DNA of 57,497 bases from Chloroflexota bacterium (GTDB taxonomy: Bacteria; Chloroflexota; Limnocylindria; Limnocylindrales; CSP1-4), in NCBI GenBank assembly GCA_003171255.1, contig PMYK01000049.1:1-57497 (forward strand), written 5' to 3'. The translations under genes and the position numbers were made by a program. The notes beneath the pieces are model-generated. The model did no database searches. It was not told where the DNA came from and saw nothing but the letters and a program-made list of their open reading frames with translations. Positions 6,855 through 9,433 of the stretch are shown here, piece by piece; positions within the stretch are counted from its first letter, which is position 1, and each line of letters begins with the position of its first letter.

Positions 6855-7035
6855 GGGGGCTAAGGGTACCGCGTCGGGGGGCGTCGGGGAGCGACCGACG
6901 CTGATCTGGTGCGCGCGGCAAAGCGCACCTGGCTGCCGGCCTCCGCGAGGAGGGCTCGGACGCCGTCAGCCAGGCCGGGACCGAGCCTGGGGCCATGAAT
7001 CTGGAGCCATTTCTCCAACTGCTCACCCGCTTCAG

Positions 7036-7124
7036 TGGCACGGCGACCGGTGGCACGGCGCCCGGTGGCACGGCGCCCGGTGGCACGGCGACCGGTAGCA
7101 CGGCGACCGGTAGCACGGCGCCCC
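7036..7124. repeat. 15-bp minisatellite, about 6 copies (tggcacggcg[a/c]ccgg)
   Basis: Read directly: units at 7036, 7051, 7066, 7081, 7096 and a partial unit at 7111, with A/C and G/A variants; lies between dnaE and the S51-like gene. Confidence 0.95.
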
Positions 7125-7167: not shown

Positions 7168-8463
7168 TCAGCCGACCGGCGCCGCCGGCCGAAGCTCCCA
7201 GGTCGTGCCGGCCGGGGTGTCGTGGAGCTCGATGCCGGCGGCCAGGAGACGATCGCGGATTGCGTCCGCGGCGGCCCAGTCGCGAGCCTCGCGGGCGCGG
7301 ACCCGCTCGGCCAGCAGTGCATCAACGAATGGGCCGATCAGCTCGGCCGGATCGCGCGAGCCCTCGACCGCCAGCTCGCCCAGGCAGACGACGGCGGCCC
7401 TCAAAGCGGACCGGGCCGAAGCCAACGCATCGGACTGATCGGTGTCGTGCGACCAGGCCTGGATTGTCTCCTCGAGGGCGAGGATGGCCCGGACCGCGGC
7501 CGGGACGTCGCACTCCTCGAGCGAGACGCTGAACGTGGCTTCCAGGCGAGCCACCTCATCCCGCAGCGGGGCCTGTGTGGGGGCGGTGGCTATGACCGGC
7601 ACGCCGACCGTGCCATCGGCCGCATCGGCCGCACCGGCCGCACCGGATGCCGAGACATGCCCACGGCGATGCGCGGCCGCCAGTTCGGCGATCGGCAGCT
7701 GGGACCCCGCCGGGTAGACCGTGCTCCGTCCGTCCTTGCGCACCGTGACCACCCCCAAACCAAGCACGCTCGCCGACCCTGCTTCGAGATCAAGCACGAG
7801 CGCCGTGTGGCCGTCGACGCCGAGAATAAAGATGTCCGGTGGCAGTTCCGCCTCCAGCACCTCGAGGCGGCGCTCGCCGAGATAGCAGAAGCGCGTGTCG
7901 TGGGTGCCACCCTCGGCATTGTCGTAGTGGGGCACGACCGCGACCGGCAGGCCGAGCGGCGTGAGCAGATCCAGCCCGTCGAGCCAGCGCGGCGCCTCGC
8001 CGACTTTGTAGATCTCGTAGACGGGGATCGTGTACCGGCCAAGAGTCAGCGCAGCCGCGCTCGCCATCGTCACTGCCCCGCCCTGCGCCAGCTTTCGGGC
8101 AAGCAGGCTCGGGATCTCCGACCCGGCCCATTGCCGCAGCGCGTAGGAAGGACTGCCCGGTCCGGTGAACACGAGTCGAGCGTCGCGGATCCGGACCAGC
8201 GCCGTCTCGCGGCTGAGCGGATCGGCATCGGCCGACCGAAACGAGGCGACGGAAAACGGCGCGCCGACTGTCGTTCGGAAGTAGTCGACCGTCCGGGCGG
8301 TTATGTCGTCGGCGTTCTCCTGGAAGCCGTAGGGCGTGTCGAGTACGACCGCCGGAACCGGCCGCTCTCCCAACCGATCGAGGATTGCGCGGTGGACACG
8401 GGCCATGGTGGGCGTGGTCTCGCCCGAGCCCATGATCGTGAGGATCCGCGGCAGCGCCGTCAT
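7168..8463 (-). CDS. peptidase S51/cyanophycinase-like domain fused to cysteinyl-tRNA synthetase C-terminal (DALR + CysS_C-like) region
   Basis: N-term [22 protein letters not shown]...[12 protein letters not shown]...[16 protein letters not shown]-term 130 aa ...[46 protein letters not shown], the classic CysRS C-terminus pattern. Start taken as MTALPRI. Confidence 0.75.
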
Positions 8464-8494
8464 CGCCCCTGGCCTCCCCACGCGCCAACGAGTC

Positions 8495-9433
8495 TCACGA
8501 AACCAGCGGCCCGGTGAAGAGTCCATCGCGGTCGGCCGCGATGATCGCCTCCGTCAGCTCGTCCGGATGCTGCGCGTGGATGTCGTGATCGCCCTTGAAC
8601 CAGTTGACTCGGACGGCGACACCAGACGATCCGGCCGCCGCCATCGCCGCCTCCGATCCGGCACGCTTCGCCTTCGTCCAATCGCTCTCGCCCCCATCGA
8701 CCGGCACGATCAGGGCCGGCACTCGCAGAGACCGCCACAGATCGGCCGTCCGCTGGCCCCACATCGCCTCGAGGATCGCCTTGTGATGATCGCGCGACAG
8801 CCAGGGCGCGATGGTTCGATCCGGCCGGATCTCGAAGTTGGCGAGCGAGCCTTCGATGCCCTCGGCGGTCCAGTCCGCATGAGCCGAGCGGAAGTAGCCC
8901 TCAACCGAGTCGAGCGGCATGCCCACGAGCTGCGGCGGGGCGAGCCGCTCCCAGCAGATCTCCCAGGTCGGAAAGGCGTCGCGCAGGTCCGTCAACCCGC
9001 CATCGACCAGGACGATCCCGCGCGTCAGGTCCGGGTGACGAACCGCATAGTCCAGGACCACGCTTGCGCCCCAGGACTGTCCGACCAGGATCGGTCGCTC
9101 GAAGCCCGGCCCCAATGAGCCGATGAGCGCCCGCAGGTCCTCGGCGATCGTGGCGAAGTCGTAGCCGCTGTCGGGCTTGTCGGAGTGGCCGTGGCCGCGC
9201 AGGTCGACCGCAGTGGAGCGGCGCCCCGCTTCGGCCAGATGCCTCGCGACCCCGTCCCACAGCCGCGCGTTCGAGGCCAGGCCATGGACGAGCACAAAGG
9301 GCGCTCCGGACGCGAGGGCGGCCTCGATCGGCGGGTTCCAGCGTAGGACGCGCAGCTCGATCCCACCGTCCACCTCAAGCCGCTCGTCGACGGGTTCTAG
9401 CCTGCTGCTCACGTCTGCCTCCTCTTGGGCCAT
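8495..9433 (-). CDS. alpha/beta hydrolase
   Basis: [14 protein letters not shown]...[42 protein letters not shown]...[17 protein letters not shown]...[13 protein letters not shown]; nucleophile elbow GQSWG. Confidence 0.9.

Follow-up and report, generated by a model that had tools for sequence, protein, structure and literature searches.

The stretch of DNA analysed here, called the window (57,497 nucleotides), carries on its minus strand a gene (7168-8463) for a 431-amino-acid protein, in which the translation and 74 aligned homologues delimited a peptidase S51-like domain, a linker, and a CysS_C tail, the anticodon-binding domain of cysteinyl-tRNA synthetase (CysRS). This locus raised the question of why a hydrolase-like domain should be joined to the part of a synthetase that reads an anticodon. 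No description of an S51 plus CysS_C architecture was found in the literature searched, which mostly excludes subscription journals.

Gene structure and distribution of the fusion

The ORF was intact, with an ATG at 8463 and a stop codon at 7168-7170, and a purine-rich stretch (GGGGAGGCCAGGGG; 8466-8479, minus strand) just 5' of the ATG was read as a likely ribosome-binding site. The gene was also intact in approximately 19 of 20 congeners, mostly with 76-86% identity. Relatives and GTDB species genomes were searched, which yielded the 74 homologues; these came from Chloroflexota, Actinomycetota (Acidimicrobiia, Kineosporia, Dactylosporangium, and Nonomuraea), Thermodesulfobacteriota, Bacillota (Syntrophomonadaceae), and MAGs labelled Myxococcota. 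Because the fusion was retained in 74 homologues from these five phyla, it is no assembly accident. In even draws of genomes, the S51 part was encoded in 54 of 201 from Chloroflexota and in 14 of 199 from Actinomycetota, the phylum to which Nonomuraea belongs. A tandem repeat of a 15-base unit (GTGGCACGGCGACCG, 5.7 copies; window 7035-7120) lay between dnaE and the end of the fusion gene; the long plus-strand ORFs that it crosses are probably spurious.

The preliminary description had asked whether the fusion occurs in other taxa and whether those genomes also have a full cysS. A full, separate cysS was present in nearly all fusion genomes tested, and therefore the tail does not represent what remains of a CysRS that was lost; the two exceptions, G299 and G305, showed incomplete hits in MAGs and may be assembly gaps. 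The idea that the fusion supplies an anticodon domain to a tail-deficient CysRS was also rejected, as the full-length cysS proteins of the f14 genomes do carry the tail, which the CysS_C Pfam model had missed.

The S51-like domain and its active site

The N-terminal domain (amino acids 5-258; 7690-8451, minus strand) was identified by Pfam (PF03575), profile comparison, structural modeling, and conservation. The Pfam Peptidase_S51 model matched residues 9-188 of the window protein weakly (E = 2e-4 to 8e-4; 21.3 and 19.6 bits), just under the curated cut-off of 23.9, and matched 15 of 45 members taken singly at E ≤ 0.01. The profile built from the 45 homologues matched the S51 peptidase 6nqc with E = 5e-14. 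The AlphaFold model of the 431-residue protein had a mean pLDDT of 87, and its top Foldseek matches were 6nqc (E = 6e-13), PepE, Xenopus dipeptidase E, and cyanophycinase; for 6nqc, PepE, and cyanophycinase the target TM values were 0.66-0.81. As modelled, the head thus has the S51 (class I GATase-like) fold. It did not qualify as a cyanophycinase proper, scoring 14.7 bits against the TIGR02069 equivalog cut-off of 126.6.

Across the 74 homologues the invariant positions of the head were GSGE (12-15), N50, GPGSP (101-105), S135, A137, Y149-E150, Y152-K153, H179, N182, DT (189-190), C193, R199, and D217, which include the motif strings YEIYK, PH179xxN, G-x-D217, and NxEGG..DT..C. The catalytic triads of characterized relatives are Ser120-His157-Glu192 in PepE and Ser133-His168-Asp196 in MccG (PMC9239234). 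In the alignment with E. coli PepE, Ser120 corresponded to Ser135 (codon 8059-8061, minus strand), the presumed nucleophile, and His157 to His179 (codon 7927-7929, minus strand). In the AlphaFold model Ser135 lies between a strand (129-134) and a helix (135-138), as expected of a nucleophile elbow. The place of the triad acid, Glu192 in PepE, is taken by codon 218 (7810-7812, minus strand), which encodes Gly in the window protein. Glu occupied this position in 51 of the 74 homologues, and the 23 rows with Gly or Ser all belonged to the window's own clade. Ser135, His179, Asp217, and Glu150 were invariant in that clade as well, and the Gly adjacent to the nucleophile in the usual S51 motif was Ala137 throughout.

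Glu150 was at one point taken as the triad acid by analogy with Asp135 of PepE; this assignment was dropped, since the acid of PepE is Glu192 (PMC9239234), and Glu150 stays an invariant candidate acid. Where position 218 is Gly or Ser, the invariant Asp217 or Glu150 might stand in for the acid. The family is thus very likely one of serine hydrolases; activity of the window's own protein, with Gly at 218, is less certain. The domain therefore resembles the MEROPS S51 family (PepE, CphB, and the actinobacterial 6nqc) in fold, in the nucleophile Ser and the His, and, in most members, in the acid position, but differs in having ASAAA for GxSAG, invariant motifs of its own, the CysS_C tail, and, in the window's clade, the loss of the Glu192 equivalent. 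The resemblance to cyanophycinase and dipeptidase E and the retained nucleophile Ser, both noted in the preliminary description, were thus borne out by the structural and profile matches and by Ser135 in 74 of 74 homologues. Of the catalytic Ser, His, and Glu, whose lack of conservation in homologues that description would have taken as a sign of a degraded gene, Ser and His were conserved throughout and Glu was replaced by Gly or Ser in the window's own clade, with no signs of gene decay.

The CysS_C tail and its putative tRNA-Cys contacts

The tail (amino acids 376-425; 7189-7338, minus strand) was recognised by Pfam (PF23493) and by comparison with CysRS structures. The CysS_C model matched residues 380-422 with E = 1.2e-7 (32.2 bits, above the cut-off of 23) and, when members were searched individually, matched 44 of 45. 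The best solved relative in phmmer was E. coli CysRS (1li5, E = 2.7e-10), the 45-member profile matched four CysRS structures (E = 1e-12 to 5e-11), and in Foldseek the CysRS-tRNA-Cys complex 1u0b (E = 2.8e-4) came next after the S51 structures. The NCBIfam cysS model matched at profile positions 346-464 only (E = 1.3e-8), and the class I catalytic core with HIGH and KMSKS was absent from the window protein.

In the E. coli CysRS-tRNA-Cys complex, G34 is contacted by Arg423, Arg427, Trp432, and Asp436 (PMC12684709). The alignment placed R387, R391, W396, and D400 of the window protein (codons within 7264-7305, minus strand) at these positions. R387, R391, and D400 were invariant in 73 of 73 tails, W396 was always aromatic (W in 46, F in 24, and Y in 3), and R403 and D415 were also invariant. 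The equivalents of 423, 427, 436, and 451 were as strict in the S51 tails as in CysRS, and most other tail positions varied; at the equivalent of Arg427, all S51 tails had R, compared with R in 81% and K in 18% of CysRS. The equivalent of Trp458 (GTxW motif) was lost in many short-linker members. This pattern of conservation fits retained anticodon reading, although the same residues could be structural, and on balance we lean slightly towards a tail that binds tRNA-Cys. Overall, the fusion shares with CysRS the C-terminal anticodon-binding domain with equivalents of R423, R427, W432, D436, and D451, but is without the catalytic Rossmann core and HIGH/KMSKS, and full cysS is a separate gene.

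The segment between the two halves (amino acids 259-375; 7339-7689, minus strand) was a variable linker with predicted helices that was not recognisably CysRS. In the AlphaFold model residues 273-295 had low confidence and were followed by helices at 300-367, a long helical stretch that was absent from the short-linker members. A profile-profile comparison of residues 297-376 with the CysRS stem gave a probability of 2%, no better than the reversed sequence, so that a DALR or CysRS stem is not supported. Accordingly, the earlier reading of an S51-like domain joined to a CysRS C-terminal domain and devoid of the CysRS catalytic core agreed with the Pfam, profile, and Foldseek results for both parts, and the C-terminus was CysRS-like by fold as well as by profile; of the last 130 residues, which had been read as DALR plus C-terminal sequence, only about 50 (376-425) were securely CysRS-derived, and the DALR part was not upheld.

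Tail-less relatives

Six Chloroflexota proteins (L130-L135) had the same S51 motifs and ended after the hydrolase domain. They were not frameshifted forms of tailed proteins: in a six-frame scan of their surroundings the best score was 10 bits, in one reverse frame, compared with 55-62 bits in controls. In the tree of the S51 part, long- and short-linker members were largely separate and the tail-less members sat with the short-linker clade; the tree is unrooted, and gain and loss of the tail are not distinguished by it. Because tailed and tail-less members shared their active-site motifs, the tail is most likely a targeting or sensing device.

Genomic context

An alpha/beta hydrolase gene (8495-9433, minus strand; Pfam Abhydrolase, start codon approximate), with a Ser nucleophile in GQSWG, ended 31 nt before the start of the fusion gene. 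In 35 distinct loci of Limnocylindria, Acidimicrobiia, and Actinomycetes, a gene of this kind immediately preceded the fusion on the same strand, with stop and start mostly overlapping. L136, L146, and the tail-less L133 had a close relative of it as a neighbour, in other orientations. Both hydrolases probably serve a common process, irrespective of the tail. Beyond this gene no neighbour was conserved across phyla, the others differing from phylum to phylum, and PADLOC gave no match to a defence system for either the fusion or its partner.

In a Thermodesulfobacteriota MAG, a YqeY gene (GatB/YqeY-type domain; L057:5103-5573, plus strand) was directly upstream of the fusion; it was absent from the other annotated neighbourhoods. 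In two genomes without the alpha/beta hydrolase, genes for an M17 leucyl aminopeptidase and an M28 peptidase adjoined the fusion (L043:504-2201, plus strand, and L072:7048-8448, minus strand), a possible hint at peptide metabolism.

Possible function of the fusion

We tentatively propose that the protein is an S51-type serine hydrolase directed to tRNA-Cys by its CysRS-derived tail. The tail would recognise the anticodon GCA, chiefly through G34. The S51 domain would act in trans to CysRS, removing or cleaving a moiety that aminoacyl-tRNA-Cys carries or a compound that resembles it chemically, with the alpha/beta hydrolase as operon partner. The proposal starts from the architecture, the conserved fusion, the G34-contact residues, the Ser and His, and the operon layout, all of which were observed. 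Its chemistry has a precedent in MccG, an S51 enzyme whose substrate is an aminoacyl-nucleotide (PMC9239234). The nature of the substrate, aminoacyl-tRNA-Cys or its chemical kin, is a speculative part of it. Likewise speculative is a specific version, in which an S51 enzyme finds tRNA-Cys by an anticodon reader and hydrolyses an aminoacyl or modified cysteinyl group in trans, as cysteine trans-editing or tRNA surveillance by an unrelated hydrolase fold. CysRS is not known to us to need editing.

This reading was preferred by a narrow margin to its two closest rivals because the G34 contacts were strict and because AlaXp follows the same plan with other parts. AlaXp proteins consist of an editing domain with or without C-Ala, which is homologous to the C-terminus of AlaRS and brings the hydrolase to its tRNA (PMC3158927). 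The fusion would be built like these trans-editing enzymes, in which a free-standing hydrolase carries a tRNA-binding domain that shares homology with the C-terminal part of its cognate synthetase and that some members lack, but its hydrolase is S51-like and not homologous to the AlaRS editing domain, and its tail would read the anticodon, whereas AlaXp reads the tRNA elbow. The fusion is thus neither CysRS, cyanophycinase, nor AlaXp. Counting against a tRNA-Cys-directed hydrolase were the tail-less members, the short linkers, the loss of Trp458, and Gly or Ser at 218 in the window's own clade. In particular, it is doubtful that a single subunit could span from the anticodon to the CCA end, because the short linkers are without the helical stretch and many members are without the Trp458 equivalent; the anticodon-contact residues could instead be kept for the fold. 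The distance between anticodon and CCA, the short-linker members, and Gly218 call for caution.

A second reading, only slightly less likely in our estimate, takes the S51 half for an ordinary hydrolase of small molecules or peptides (an exopeptidase, an amidase, or a destroyer of aminoacyl-nucleotide inhibitors) and the tail for a sensor or anchor, such that binding of tRNA-Cys, charged or not, would control the activity or the location of the enzyme. Gcn2, with its synthetase-like domain, offers a loose parallel. We know of no S51 enzyme regulated by tRNA. The identical motifs of the tail-less members agree with such a role, the large number of invariant polar residues points to a specific small substrate, and the alpha/beta hydrolase accompanies tailed and tail-less forms alike, a pairing that is itself uninformative on tRNA. 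Known S51 enzymes act on Asp-X dipeptides and cyanophycin, and MccG acts on an isoaspartyl-nucleotide inhibitor of AspRS (PMC9239234). MccG, the microcin C immunity peptidase of S51 clade V, has in common with the fusion the S51 fold and Ser-His core, and its substrate is an aminoacyl-nucleotide mimicking a synthetase intermediate (PMC9239234); no synthetase-derived tail has been reported for MccG, however, its target is an AspRS inhibitor, and no microcin cluster was seen here.

A third reading, about as likely as the second, is that the tail no longer binds RNA and serves as a helical-hairpin module for dimerisation or contact with a partner protein, in which the two Arg and two Asp residues would form salt bridges of the fold. 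CysS_C is only about 50 residues long, the Trp458 equivalent is lost both in many short-linker members and in versions found N-terminally on GT2 glycosyltransferases of the same bacteria, and the conservation of the same residues in the latter may indicate a general module. Against this, the retained residues are those that touch G34, R391 is stricter than its counterpart in CysRS, and two full CysRS-GT2 fusions put the GT2 association itself in a CysRS context.

That the protein of the window's own clade is a non-catalytic or altered S51 relative, such as a binding protein, seems improbable. The restriction of Gly or Ser at 218 to that clade, with Glu in the other 51 rows, and Ala137 in place of the elbow Gly in all members speak for it; the four residues Ser135, His179, Asp217, and Glu150, invariant there too, and the intact gene in approximately 19 of 20 congeners speak against it, as does the heterogeneity of S51 triads reported by Yadav 2019, as cited in PMC9239234. 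Finally, misassembly, chance joining of two genes, or a pseudogene, for which only the unusual architecture and Gly218 could be cited, was rejected, as the same architecture with open frames and conserved residues was present in dozens of independent genomes of five phyla.

If the tail of the proposed tRNA-Cys-directed hydrolase does bind tRNA-Cys, an enzyme of the PepE/cyanophycinase fold would be aimed at one tRNA by its anticodon. To our knowledge, no S51 enzyme with such targeting is known. A cysteine quality-control or sensing step might then exist in at least five phyla. Since the G34 contacts and the nucleophile are defined to the residue, a single purified protein would suffice for a direct test.

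Reuse of CysS_C and other CysRS parts

Even without RNA binding, the CysRS anticodon domain would still be a portable module that at least two unrelated enzymes have taken up. GT2 glycosyltransferases of Limnocylindria and of other Chloroflexota, this genome included, also carried a fused CysS_C, with the G34-contact residues retained. In Limnocylindria a cysS paralogue stood next to a CysS_C-GT2 gene (in the window's own genome, L003:1429-2568 on G000:C32), and in two genomes a complete CysRS was fused in one frame to a GT2 domain after CysS_C (L167:1125-3545 and L164:1449-3668, both minus strand; 807 and 740 amino acids). Further GT2-associated CysRS-type loci were L109-L112, L114-L120, L162, L163, and L165. 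The CysS_C-GT2 and CysRS-GT2 fusions indicated that CysRS parts have been reused repeatedly in Chloroflexota. We found no paper on a CysRS-type/GT2 fusion, which could belong to a cysteine-plus-sugar pathway or represent a tRNA-linked glycosyltransferase.

MshC, the CysRS paralogue of mycothiol synthesis, is likewise a case of CysRS parts recruited outside translation, but it keeps the catalytic core and is without CysS_C, the reverse of the S51 fusion. Several Chloroflexota also encoded short CysRS paralogues of approximately 400-440 amino acids without CysS_C (L158:1477-2754, minus strand; L161:187-1404, plus strand; L159; and L160). These passed the cysS cut-off but not that of MshC, and by their scores would be either MshC-like proteins or truncated CysRS.
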